From: Nitrosomicrobium frigidum (SeqCode)
GTDB taxonomy: Archaea; Thermoproteota; Nitrososphaeria; Nitrososphaerales; Nitrososphaeraceae
Assembly (NCBI GenBank): GCA_023251115.1
Contig: JAHEZK010000013.1
Coordinates: forward strand, 1-33,803
Reading direction: 5' to 3'
DNA length: 33,803 nucleotides
Below, piece by piece: positions 1,261 through 33,247 of the stretch; positions within the stretch are counted from its first letter, which is position 1; each line of letters opens with the position of its first letter. The notes under the pieces are model-generated. The model saw nothing but the letters and a program-made list of their open reading frames with translations, was not told where the DNA came from and ran no database searches. The position numbers and the translations under genes were made by a program.

Positions 1261-1363
1261 CGGGCCCGGAGGGATTTGAACCCTCGACCTGACGCTTAGG
1301 GGGCGTCCGCGCTATCCATTTTGCGCTCATCTCAAAACATGAAATGACCTGCGCTACGAGCCC
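1261..1363 (-). tRNA. tRNA-Arg(CCU) with a D-arm intron
   Basis: The minus strand folds as a tRNA. Acceptor stem GGGCUCG pairs with CGGGCCC, with one G-U pair. The T-arm is GAGGG-UUCAAAU-CCCUC. The anticodon stem GACGC/GCGUC encloses loop CCCCUAA, giving anticodon CCU (Arg). The gene is 103 nt long. The excess of about 28 nt lies in the D-arm, flanked by a 6-base direct repeat (AGCGCA, at 1322-1327 and 1350-1355). Removing 28 nt gives a 75-nt tRNA with D-arm GCGC-AAAAUGGAUA-GCGC. Position 33, normally U, is C. The insert can form a 7-bp hairpin (UCAUUUC/GAGAUGA). The exact splice sites are not determined. Confidence 0.85.
1322..1355 (-). other. Probable 28-nt tRNA intron (range of possible boundaries)
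   Basis: A 28-nt insertion within this range, flanked by a direct AGCGCA repeat, so its register is ambiguous by up to six bases. It can form a hairpin with a 7-bp stem and loop AUGUUUU. Archaeal introns at non-canonical tRNA positions are removed by the splicing endonuclease at bulge-helix-bulge motifs. I could not place such a motif unambiguously. Confidence 0.55.
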
Positions 1364-1462
1364 TTGCAATTTGAATATGCATGTTAATATAAAGATTCAT
1401 CCGACAATTAAGATCCATATTATTTTGCATGTAAATTGTAAATTCAAATCTTGTTACTTTAC

Positions 1463-2218
1463 TCAATTTAGATTAAAAGTATACAACTTCTTTTCATAAA
1501 TAATTCTAAAACCTAACTTTTTGTAGAATTCATCATATTTTTCTTCAGTCAGAGTCTGCATAACCAGCGTATTGTAGTCATTATCCTTTGCTATTTTTAT
1601 TGCATTTCCTATCAATTGCTTTGCTACTCCTTTTTTCCTAAAATGCTGAATAGTTCCCAAACAGTAAAGACCTATGTTATTATTTTTTTCAAATAATAAG
1701 CAACAACCCGCAGGATAGGTTCCCTGATTCAAATTGTAGCGCGCAACAAATAATGTTAATCTTCTGTAGTGTTTAGAAATTATGCTTGTTACTTCGTTTT
1801 TGATACCTAATGAATCAAAAGAGTTACAAAAAATATCAATCCACTCTTCTAAATCATGTTTGTCAACTTCTTCAATTTCAATATCTTTGATAGTGTTCAT
1901 TACATAATTGTCGACATCAAAACCCAGGATTTTCATAGTGCCGAATTTCGGTAAACTCAAATTGAAAGAATTCTTAGTATCACAAATCAAATGTATGTAA
2001 TAAGTATTAATGTCACTGGTAAGTTTACTCTTTATAGAATTTAGGATTTCAACAACGTTATTACATGGATATCTAATGTTTAATCTATTAAAAAAATAAT
2101 CATCTCCTAATTTATCGTTTGAAAATAATTCTACGCAATCTATTTTTTGGTATGCTCTACTCCAAAGATAACAAAATGATGACTCATTGTCATTAATATA
2201 TTCAATATTCAAGTCCAA
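1463..2218 (-). CDS. GNAT-family N-acetyltransferase (MshD-like context)
   Basis: 251 aa from TTG 2218. The C-terminal half (about residues 115-251) is a GNAT fold. FVARYNL and the strand around CCLLFEKNN precede the acetyl-CoA pyrophosphate loop FRKKGVAKQL (residues 193-202), and FYKKLGFRIIYEK is the usual C-terminal GNAT motif. The first 110 residues are divergent and might be a degenerate second GNAT domain, as in two-domain GNATs such as MshD. The start lies inside the end of the upstream CysRS-like gene (17-bp overlap), so the two are translationally coupled. Reaction: acetyl transfer from acetyl-CoA to an amino group; substrate unknown. The neighbour makes a cysteine-containing small molecule a reasonable candidate, but this is inference. 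Confidence 0.8.
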   Translation of the reverse strand: MDLNIEYINDNESSFCYLWSRAYQKIDCVELFSNDKLGDDYFFNRLNIRYPCNNVVEILNSIKSKLTSDINTYYIHLICDTKNSFNLSLPKFGTMKILGFDVDNYVMNTIKDIEIEEVDKHDLEEWIDIFCNSFDSLGIKNEVTSIISKHYRRLTLFVARYNLNQGTYPAGCCLLFEKNNNIGLYCLGTIQHFRKKGVAKQLIGNAIKIAKDNDYNTLVMQTLTEEKYDEFYKKLGFRIIYEKKLYTFNLN

Positions 2219-3362
2219 AAATTTTCATCATCTTACTGGCTTCATTCATCTTATTTGGATCCACTACAGTTTGCAGGAACAACGCGAGTGCATTGGGTGT
2301 ATCCAAATCATTATCAATATAATTTTTAAATTTTTTAAGTGTATATGTATCCGTTTCTAACTCTTTTGAGTCAGCAACATTATAGTTCTTGGTATCGTAA
2401 TTCTTATTTTCATGATCTGATGTAGATACTATGTTTCTAATCATGGTGTTTATTCCTTCGAACTTTATTAACTCTGAAATTTTGAAATTTATTATTTTCT
2501 TATAATCAAGCGAATAAAAATAGAGTTTCAGAGTATTTGCATCAAATTTTTTCAATAGATCCCTGACATAAATTGCATTACCAGTAGACTTTGACATCTT
2601 TGTACTCTCGATGTCTAGAATACCGATATGCATCCAGCACTTTACAGGATTCTTTTTGTGTGAAAGTGCCATAAGTATCGCACGCAGCACTTCGTGGTGT
2701 GGGTAGCATAAATCAAGACCCCCGACATGAATATCATAATTACCATTAAAATGAAACATTGCCACAGCTGTATCTTGGGTGTGCCACCAAGGGGTACCGT
2801 TTCCAAAGTTCTTATCATTGTATTGGATTCCGTAGTTGTCACTCGTATTCCATAAAAATATATCCGTAACGTTTCGTTTATTAATATCAATATCATATCT
2901 TTGATTCCATAGTTCCTTTTTGGATAAATGTGAAAGAGCTCCGTACGATTTAATTTTAGAGGTGTCCAAGTATACGTTACCATTTGAAGAATAAGCTAGT
3001 TTCCGCTTGACTAGTTTTCCAATCAAATACTTTGATTCATGTACATAATCGGTAACTCTTGCATAATTCAAGTCACCAATATCAAGTCTATTCAGATCAT
3101 CAATAAGGTTTTTAAATATAAAATCAGTATTGATGTTATTCTCGTATAACTTTGGATCTATATCAGTAATATTTACTATTACATGGGTGATATAGTTTCG
3201 TGATTGTAGTAATCTGCTTATTAGGTTTACCAATACAAAAATTCTTGCATGACCTATATGGCAATTGTCATCAAGAGTAGGACCACATACGAAAATTCTA
3301 ACAATCTTATTAGTAGGCGCTATCGAAATATTACTTTGAGTTAGTCTATCAAAAATTATCAA
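2202..3362 (-). CDS. Truncated cysteinyl-tRNA synthetase paralogue (MshC-like ligase?)
   Basis: 386 aa from TTG 3362; no ATG lies near the N-terminus. It has the CysRS catalytic core: FVCGPTLDDNCHIGHAR with Cys26 and HIGH at 35-38, NITDIDPKLYE near 64-74, DIHVGGLDLCYPHHE at 210-224 and KMSKS at 255-259. It stops shortly after NDLDTPNALALF (351-362), so most of the helical and anticodon-binding C-terminus of a roughly 460-aa CysRS is absent. From family knowledge, mycothiol ligase MshC has the same architecture and ends at an equivalent point. Two of four zinc ligands are changed: WHIEC reads WHTQD (Asp197 for Cys), and the Glu after PHHE is Leu226. It may activate cysteine for a small acceptor rather than tRNA. 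A divergent CysRS remains possible. Confidence 0.8.
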   Translation of the reverse strand: MIIFDRLTQSNISIAPTNKIVRIFVCGPTLDDNCHIGHARIFVLVNLISRLLQSRNYITHVIVNITDIDPKLYENNINTDFIFKNLIDDLNRLDIGDLNYARVTDYVHESKYLIGKLVKRKLAYSSNGNVYLDTSKIKSYGALSHLSKKELWNQRYDIDINKRNVTDIFLWNTSDNYGIQYNDKNFGNGTPWWHTQDTAVAMFHFNGNYDIHVGGLDLCYPHHEVLRAILMALSHKKNPVKCWMHIGILDIESTKMSKSTGNAIYVRDLLKKFDANTLKLYFYSLDYKKIINFKISELIKFEGINTMIRNIVSTSDHENKNYDTKNYNVADSKELETDTYTLKKFKNYIDNDLDTPNALALFLQTVVDPNKMNEASKMMKIFGLEY

Positions 3363-13834: not shown

Positions 13835-14098
13835 ATGTCTTCAACTGTATTCCTCTCAAAAAAATTATCACAAGAACTATTAAATCTGGATATTGATGAA
13901 GGAGTACGAATAGAATCAAATAAGAATATAAAGTGTAAAATGTACATAAATAAGAGAACGTCAGGTTATTTCGTTCTTGAAATCGAAGATACGAATTCAA
14001 CCAATATTAAAGAATTCAGATTCTATAGAGATATCAAACCTATTCATAGGCTTATAGACAAGATTTTTGGAAAACAATATTCCATTACCATTTATTGA
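13835..14098 (+). CDS. Small hypothetical protein
   Basis: 87 aa from ATG 13835, with a TATA box at ideal leaderless distance and a T-run after the stop. The protein is charged and appears alpha then beta (LSKKLSQELLNLDIDEG, then CKMYINKRTSGYFVLEIEDT, then EFRFYRDIKPIHRLIDKIFG). It is cytoplasmic with no recognisable motif. The competing minus-strand frame at 13671-14000 is Leu/Tyr/Phe-rich and lacks a promoter, as expected for a shadow. Function unknown. Confidence 0.65.
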   Translation: MSSTVFLSKKLSQELLNLDIDEGVRIESNKNIKCKMYINKRTSGYFVLEIEDTNSTNIKEFRFYRDIKPIHRLIDKIFGKQYSITIY

Positions 14099-31894: not shown

Positions 31895-33247
31895 CTAGGT
31901 TTTGATTTTCAGAAAGATATCTGATTTAATTATTTTTTCAGTGGCATTAAGCAGATTCTTTATATCCTTTACATCGTGAACAGTTGAGATCGCGCCCATT
32001 TTGCGAGGCAGGAAAAATATTCCGTGCTTGGCCATCAACGCGAAGTGGTATCGCGTAAGACCCTGAATATCAGATAATGCTACATCACTGGCGTTTGTTA
32101 TTTCGTTTACCTTATCTGTAAGAAAATGTGTGAGAAAAAGGGAACCAATACCAGTAACTTGTGTTCTCAATCCATAATCTGAAAATAATTTTCTCAAGCC
32201 ATTTCTTGCCATATCCCCTAACCTATTGATTTTATTATAAATCGACTTACGATTTTGACTGAGATAGTCTAAAGTTGCGTAACCTGCAGTCATTGTCAGC
32301 GGATTCGAAGAAAAGGTCCCACCGCCGATATAACATATCTGTTCCTTATTCGTGTTTTCTACTGGATTTGCTACTTTCATTATTTCTTTTTTGCCACACA
32401 ATACTCCTATCGGAAGCCCACCGCCAACAATTTTGCCAAGCGTAATCATGTCTGGATCCAGATGATAGAAAGACGAATAGCTTCCAAAATTAAATCTAAA
32501 CCCAGTTACAATTTCATCCAAGACAAACAGTATATCATTCCTTTTACAGTACTCTTCTAAACCTCTAAGGTAATTGATATCTGCAGGAATACAACCTCCA
32601 CCACCCAGTATCGGTTCAAGAATAACGCACGCTAGGTCATCTTTTACACTGTCTAGTAATTTGATTGATCGGTCAAGATCATTGTATGGAATTGATTCGA
32701 CAAAATCACCTTCCCTTCCCGTCATACCTACTCCTTCATCAATTTCAAATGGATAATTGACAGACTGCATCAAGTCAGTATTAAATCCATGCCACCCGCC
32801 TATTGTTTTACAAATAATCCTTTTTTTGGTTACAGCTCTAGCAATTCTAATAGCATACATTGTAGCTTCTGACCCAGTAGTACAGAATCTTAAAAGTTCG
32901 CTGGTAGGGATCGATTTCTTAATGGTTTCTCCCAAATTGACGCTGATATCATTTGCAGTACCATATAGTGTGCCCTGACGTATTTGTCGAGCAAGCTTCT
33001 TAACAACAATAGTGGGAGAATGGCCAAGGACTAATGCCCAGTGTCCCATCCAGTAGTCAACAAACTTATTCCCGTCAACGTCAAAAAGATGCTTATCTTT
33101 TGCCTTATTCACAAAAAATGGATAAGGTTTGAAAAATCGAATGTTATGACTAATGCCTCCTGGGAAGATATTTACAGAATTATCATAAGCTTTTTTTGAG
33201 TTGTGAGTTTTTTTTTCATACAGACTGTTTAGACTGTCGCGTGTCAC
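31895..33247 (-). CDS. Glutamate-1-semialdehyde 2,1-aminomutase-family PLP enzyme
   Basis: 450 aa from GTG 33247, with A/T-rich AATAAATA about 28 bases upstream. Class III aminotransferase features: FPGGISHNIRFFKP (28-41), LFDVDGNKFVDYWMGHWALVLGHS (54-77), FCTTGSEATMYAIRIAR, VLDEIVTGFR with Asp244 and Lys272 (TLGKIVGGGLPIG) as Schiff-base lysine, and GGTFSSNPLTMTAG. The pattern is that of GSA aminomutase (HemL), which makes 5-aminolevulinate for haem and corrins. The PPG.NSPVR region is divergent (GGISHNIRF) and the length is slightly greater, so it could be a HemL paralogue acting on another amino acid. The gene lies next to the rRNA gene. Confidence 0.85.
   Translation of the reverse strand: MTRDSLNSLYEKKTHNSKKAYDNSVNIFPGGISHNIRFFKPYPFFVNKAKDKHLFDVDGNKFVDYWMGHWALVLGHSPTIVVKKLARQIRQGTLYGTANDISVNLGETIKKSIPTSELLRFCTTGSEATMYAIRIARAVTKKRIICKTIGGWHGFNTDLMQSVNYPFEIDEGVGMTGREGDFVESIPYNDLDRSIKLLDSVKDDLACVILEPILGGGGCIPADINYLRGLEEYCKRNDILFVLDEIVTGFRFNFGSYSSFYHLDPDMITLGKIVGGGLPIGVLCGKKEIMKVANPVENTNKEQICYIGGGTFSSNPLTMTAGYATLDYLSQNRKSIYNKINRLGDMARNGLRKLFSDYGLRTQVTGIGSLFLTHFLTDKVNEITNASDVALSDIQGLTRYHFALMAKHGIFFLPRKMGAISTVHDVKDIKNLLNATEKIIKSDIFLKIKT

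Follow-up and report, generated by a model that had tools for sequence, protein, structure and literature searches.

The locus examined here raises the question of why an archaeon should carry, directly beside a gene for a GNAT acetyltransferase, a gene for a cysteinyl-tRNA synthetase (CysRS) that ends shortly after its catalytic core. The window, the whole stretch of 33,803 nucleotides that was analysed, comes from Nitrosomicrobium frigidum, the genome of which is a 1.8-Mb draft in 137 contigs, 91% complete. The urease genes of the window, together with the relatives of this genome, suggest a Nitrososphaeria archaeon of the ammonia-oxidiser type. The two genes and their overlap are placed as follows.

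2202..3362, minus strand: short CysRS-like ligase gene, 386 aa, TTG start, intact, catalytic core only
1463..2218, minus strand: GNAT acetyltransferase gene, 251 aa, TTG start
2202..2218, minus strand: overlap of the ligase and GNAT genes, 17 bp, an overlap found in 8 of 25 loci

The preliminary description read these genes as a pair resembling MshC and MshD of mycothiol synthesis, and the truncation, the three-ligand type of metal site, the cysteine-binding residues and the invariable presence of the GNAT are in keeping with such a division of work; kinship to these enzymes and the upstream steps of the mycothiol pathway are not supported. The explanation that we favour, at slightly better than an even chance, is that the pair is a tRNA-independent cysteine ligase and an N-acetyltransferase, similar to MshC and MshD in chemistry, evolved independently of them and acting on a different acceptor, with a small protein encoded elsewhere in the window as third component.

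The catalytic domain of CysRS (PF01406) is matched by the ligase at 1e-63, and both synthetase signatures are retained, whilst the anticodon-binding C-terminal domain CysS_C is absent, as had been deduced when the locus was first described.

3249..3260, minus strand: HIGH signature, residues 35–38 of the ligase, intact
2586..2600, minus strand: KMSKS signature, residues 255–259 of the ligase, intact

The general CysRS model TIGR00435 scores 248 bits over model positions 2–379 of 466, below its cut-off of 340, and the MshC model TIGR03447 gives 142 bits where its cut-off demands 485. Across the family of such enzymes, hereafter the short family, CysS_C is matched by 3 of 36 aligned members, and the tail that follows KMSKS measures 108–155 aa, compared with 123–134 aa in MshC and 182–228 aa in most full CysRSs (158 aa in one full-length row of the Asp-type lineage described below). 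The cut point agrees with that of MshC, and the claim of an MshC-like truncation therefore stands. An AlphaFold model of the ligase (pLDDT 92) gives TM-scores of 0.82–0.86 to CysRS and MshC alike, and does not discriminate between them.

The coupling of the two genes is evident from their distribution over 61 genomes (60 relatives and the window's own), mostly drafts in which absence may reflect incomplete assembly. Scored from frame lengths and motifs, 30 of the 61 carry the short CysRS-like gene, and the GNAT family is found in all 30 of these and in none of the remaining 31 (Fisher p = 4e-18, kinship ignored). Kinship inflates independence in this p-value, however the repeated joint gains and losses of the pair do not rest on it, with presence and absence both seen within the window's genus, genera g2 and g10, and families f9 (which we take to be Nitrosopumilaceae) and f10, the genes always co-varying. 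Ligase and GNAT are adjacent on one strand in 25 loci, separated by -65 to +108 bp, and where they lie on separate contigs (G015, G017, G025, G031, and G036) both are retained. Among 250 sampled Thermoproteota the GNAT family is present in 10, five of them from f9 and one from outside the order, and in these six a CysRS-like gene lies beside it; in two more distant genomes of this sample, G285 and G293, the GNAT match is weak and a CysRS-like gene was not seen nearby. The adjacent same-strand loci, together with the complete co-occurrence, place the pair far beyond chance, as an old, conserved and strictly coupled unit. Furthermore, both genes and that of the small protein are under purifying selection, with dN/dS of about 0.2: NG86 values against congeners span about 0.1–0.37 over all pairs compared, with 0.19 for the ligase and 0.20 for the GNAT between the window and L027, about 0.17–0.19 for the window ligase against its congeners, and 0.20 for the small protein between the window and L243. 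At one locus of G031 (L057, contig C331) a ligase remnant with in-frame stops lies beside an intact GNAT, and an intact ligase is found on another contig; here the ligase gene has relocated and the old copy has decayed. In G071, a member of the Nitrososphaerales, the full neighbourhood of small protein, ligase, GNAT and metallopeptidase is present twice in similar form (L187 and L120), through either a true duplication or a mixture of strains in the assembly.

That the GNAT gene follows the ligase gene with a 17-bp overlap was confirmed from the open reading frame coordinates. The 251-aa protein matches PF00583 (4e-8), and its acetyl-CoA motif (R/Q-x-x-G-x-G/A in general form) and fold match place it in the GNAT class.

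1622..1639, minus strand: acetyl-CoA motif R-x-x-G-x-A, residues 194–199 of the GNAT, with R194 and G197 invariant

The model (pLDDT 93) has a double-GNAT fold, composed of an active C-terminal domain, in which the invariant motif is located, and a degenerate GNAT-like N-terminal half. MshD (mycothiol synthase, a tandem GNAT; TIGR03448) shares this double architecture, the acetyl-CoA motif and a CysRS-like ligase as partner, however the folds nearest to the window protein are those of VipF, 3frm and other double GNATs rather than MshD. TIGR03448 does not match the window protein and matches 3 of 27 family members, with an E value of 3e-4 at best, such that the kinship to MshD proposed at the outset is not upheld. 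Weak database matches of the GNAT include acetyltransferases of alpha-amines such as N-acetylglutamate synthase, RimI, and MshD. Just 3' of the GNAT gene (1263–1366, minus strand) lies a tRNA-like gene (Rfam tRNA, 35 bits) that was missed by ARAGORN; a D-loop with an apparent intron, the anticodon loop CCCCTAA and an unusual C at position 33 can be discerned, and its sequence suggests tRNA-Arg(CCT).

A second, full-length CysRS, for which the preliminary description proposed a search, is present in the window's genome (G000:C74:2574-3950, 498 bits against TIGR00435), and the short ligase is thus an extra copy. SepCysS was not found over the cut-off in this genome, and a SepRS/SepCysS route was accordingly rejected as an explanation of the spare CysRS. 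In a tree of 55 proteins (IQ-TREE, LG+C20+F+G4 PMSF) the short family forms a single clade (100/99) that lies within a set of full-length CysRSs, from archaea and candidate-phyla bacteria, in which the second cysteine ligand of the metal is Asp. This Asp-type lineage is split by a 100/100 branch from all ordinary CysRSs and from MshC, which groups with actinobacterial CysRS (100/98). A topology that unites the short family with MshC is worse by 60 log-likelihood units and is rejected for this protein set (p-AU 0.005); a quick tree built earlier from more rows had given p = 0.061 for the joint clade. The phylogeny therefore sets the window ligase apart from the tRNA-charging CysRS of its genome, and with the second CysRS found, the preliminary description passes both of its own refutation checks that can be made in silico. 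Kinship to MshC is not supported, and since the joint clade is rejected any likeness to MshC is convergent. MshC (cysteine:GlcN-Ins ligase) is also derived from CysRS, equally truncated, provided with the same cysteine-holding residues and partnered by a GNAT; the differences are its independent origin and the Asp that all members of the short family have in place of the second Cys ligand. The full-length Asp-type CysRSs, the nearest lineage, have the HIEDTAI and HHEAE motifs in common with the short family, but keep the anticodon-binding end and, in G048 and G050, are without a GNAT partner. The simplest history that the tree suggests is that an Asp-type CysRS was duplicated and shortened once, in a forebear of the archaea considered here, and independently of MshC. 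Our searches of the literature on archaeal CysRS paralogues, thaumarchaeal thiols and truncated CysRS found no report of this family.

Other paralogues of CysRS were also observed. Four actinobacterial loci (L220, L231, L232, and L233) hold an extra short paralogue with the motif HAECAAM...PHHAY, which is sister to MshC and occurs alongside both CysRS and MshC. A Streptomyces locus (L121:8019-9380) encodes a third CysRS, Asp-type and full-length, with neighbours that by eye resemble ATP-grasp and nucleotidyltransferase genes, and may be a copy that serves self-resistance or biosynthesis. One genome of the Methanomassiliicoccales (G063, L183) encodes a second, divergent CysRS-like protein with the motif HTSCFVM...PHHES and a shortened C-terminus.

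Mycothiol and its genes were reported absent from archaea in a 2020 review (PMC7278568). MshA is found over the cut-off in none of 16 genomes with the pair, and the genome of the window yields no match even with the threshold set at 1e-20, whilst the PIG-L/MshB deacetylase does not track the pair (19/30 genomes with it vs 13/31 without, p = 0.13) and is missing from G034, a single-contig, 99% complete carrier. With MshA, MshB and the kinship tests all failing, mycothiol proper was rejected. INO1 adjoins the GNAT gene in several loci of Nitrososphaeraceae type and lies one gene further away in those of Nitrosopumilaceae type, however it is near-universal with or without the pair (27/30 pair genomes vs 27/31 others) and not adjacent in the deeper families; a link to inositol was therefore set aside in favour of conserved synteny. 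The absence of MshA, the uncorrelated PIG-L, the near-universal INO1 and the VipF-type rather than MshD-type fold of the GNAT all count against our preferred reading. A putative metallopeptidase with a HELVH motif adjoins the pair in deep-branching lineages, and lies a few genes away in f9.

L120:9927-10418, L091:2664-3179, L204:3423-3902, L200:604-1086: putative HELVH metallopeptidase, conserved

Its association with the pair is weak (9 of 30 pair genomes vs 2 of 31 others), and it was rejected as a fourth part. The window also contains, at 31895–33247 on the minus strand, a class-III aminotransferase related to glutamate-1-semialdehyde aminomutase, which reaches 334 bits of a 527-bit cut-off.

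Under the explanation that we favour, the ligase would descend from CysRS but no longer take part in protein synthesis; its HIGH/KMSKS core would still make Cys-AMP, and the cysteinyl group would be passed to an amine other than that of tRNA. The candidate acceptors are the small protein that is inherited with the pair, and small molecules such as an amine. The GNAT would then acetylate the exposed alpha-amine of the cysteine, yielding an N-acetyl-cysteinyl conjugate, whilst the small protein, of some 90 aa and with an invariant C-terminal Tyr, may serve as acceptor or scaffold, or as an accessory of the ligase.

This small protein, best read as the third component of the system, is a new finding.

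13835..14098, plus strand: co-inherited small orphan protein, 87 aa, motif LDIDEGVRI, 10.5 kb from the ligase gene

Of the 30 pair genomes, 29 have a member of its family (about 80–120 aa), compared with 3 of the 31 others; two of these three are incomplete (75% and 84%), and the third gives a weak match. Wherever it and the ligase gene were fetched within one stretch it is divergent from, and upstream of, the ligase gene (27/27 loci), usually at 73–400 bp, at about 1 kb in f9, and at 10.5 kb in the window. Some of the loci that went into the search profile have it adjacent, and the profile so favours adjacency, however the protein is also kept where it is unlinked (G014, G022, G029, G034, and the window), which is independent of this bias. 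Searches of Pfam and the PDB found no relatives. Asp and Gly are invariant in the LDxDEGIR motif, and the last residue is Tyr in all 41 distinct sequences at a median pairwise identity of 26%; conservation as extreme as this at the C-terminus suggests a partner that binds or modifies the tail. The N-acetyl-cysteinyl group might accordingly be built on the small protein itself, as a carrier, cofactor precursor or regulatory mark, a special case of the preferred explanation whose probability overlaps with it, and which we regard as unlikely, though deserving of some weight. Its co-inheritance, retention when unlinked, fixed orientation and invariant Tyr all argue for such a role, and truncated synthetase paralogues such as EpmA/PoxA and the amino acid:carrier-protein ligases provide a precedent for a synthetase remnant acting on a protein. 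Those enzymes, unlike the ligase, derive from class II synthetases, and their known target, a Lys or a phosphopantetheine site, is not conserved in the small protein. No Lys, Cys or Ser is invariant in the 41 aligned sequences, so the modified amine would have to be the N-terminus or a non-conserved residue, and the protein might just as well have a regulatory role or act as a stabilising subunit. A more elaborate form, in which the three proteins make up a protein-scaffolded thiol cofactor pathway independent of mycothiol, with the C-terminal Tyr lying in the former tRNA-acceptor site, we consider distinctly improbable.

A function still linked to tRNA appears quite unlikely to us, with the short enzyme charging tRNA-Cys or a special tRNA, or modifying a tRNA base, and the GNAT acetylating or transferring the aminoacyl group. 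Truncated GluRS (GluQ-RS) does modify a tRNA base, and in the window ligase the KMSKS loop is intact and the fold is very near that of the tRNA-bound CysRS 1u0b. The GNAT, however, keeps its acetyl-CoA motif, unlike the Fem-type tRNA-dependent ligases. The full-length CysRS already present in the genome also argues against a charging role, as do the loss of Lys185 (present in 24 of 25 CysRSs) from the short family, a loss shared with MshC, and the scan of 38 sequences, in which no tRNA-Cys gene was found beside the pair. A parallel is CysRS* of Desulfobacterales, likewise a truncated CysRS paralogue, which without an anticodon domain still charges a special tRNA (PMC9437257), and which as a precedent also weighs against our preferred reading. 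A SelB homologue and a SelC-like tRNA are coupled to it genetically, and neither was seen here.

Whether the substrate would be cysteine turns on the metal site, in which, as first described, two of the four zinc ligands are replaced in the alignment to E. coli numbering.

3285..3287, minus strand: Cys26, first metal ligand (E. coli C28, MshC C43), invariant in the family
2772..2774, minus strand: Asp197, replacing Zn ligand Cys209 (E. coli numbering), invariant in the short family
2697..2699, minus strand: His222, metal ligand (E. coli H234, MshC H256), invariant
2685..2687, minus strand: Leu226, replacing Zn ligand Glu238 (E. coli numbering), the state in the window

The exchange of Cys for Asp is not a private loss of the window ligase, as the preliminary description might imply, with Asp invariant throughout the short family and also present in the full-length Asp-type enzymes that are the sole CysRS of Zestosphaera, three candidate-phyla genomes and G050. 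None of these genomes has SepCysS over the cut-off, and Asp at this position is therefore compatible with cysteine activation. The Glu238 position is Glu in deep-branching lineages, His in many members of the ammonia-oxidiser type and Leu in the window, leaving Cys26, Asp197, and His222 as the only possible metal ligands in the window's genus. MshC itself binds zinc through three protein ligands only (C43, C231, and H256) and holds the cysteine amine via T46, T83, and G44 (PMC9736012), so that the loss of the Glu ligand in ammonia-oxidiser members parallels MshC. Leu in this fourth position could nevertheless relax cysteine selectivity, and counts against our explanation in the window's genus; a site remodelled by these exchanges, with Asp for Cys and His or Leu for Glu, might select another small amino acid. 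We hold such a substrate to be quite improbable, given that the Asp-type site serves sole CysRSs and that the remaining residues of the cysteine pocket, equivalents of those that hold cysteine in MshC and CysRS, are invariant (C26, T29, T66, and H222) or nearly so (W193) across the short family. That the ligase is an ordinary redundant or decaying CysRS duplicate with a GNAT neighbour by chance is very improbable indeed, as the decayed remnant in G031 and the loss of the gene in several lineages are set against purifying selection, complete co-occurrence, an ancient single origin and the intact copy that G031 retains elsewhere.

For most archaea, little is known of the low-molecular-weight thiols. 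If the pair does make an N-acetyl-cysteinyl compound, CysRS would have been recruited to such chemistry at least twice, and the product would be a candidate thiol or metal-handling cofactor for the ammonia-oxidising archaea, which are important in nitrification. The patchy yet strictly coupled distribution of the genes makes a comparison of strains with and without them directly possible.
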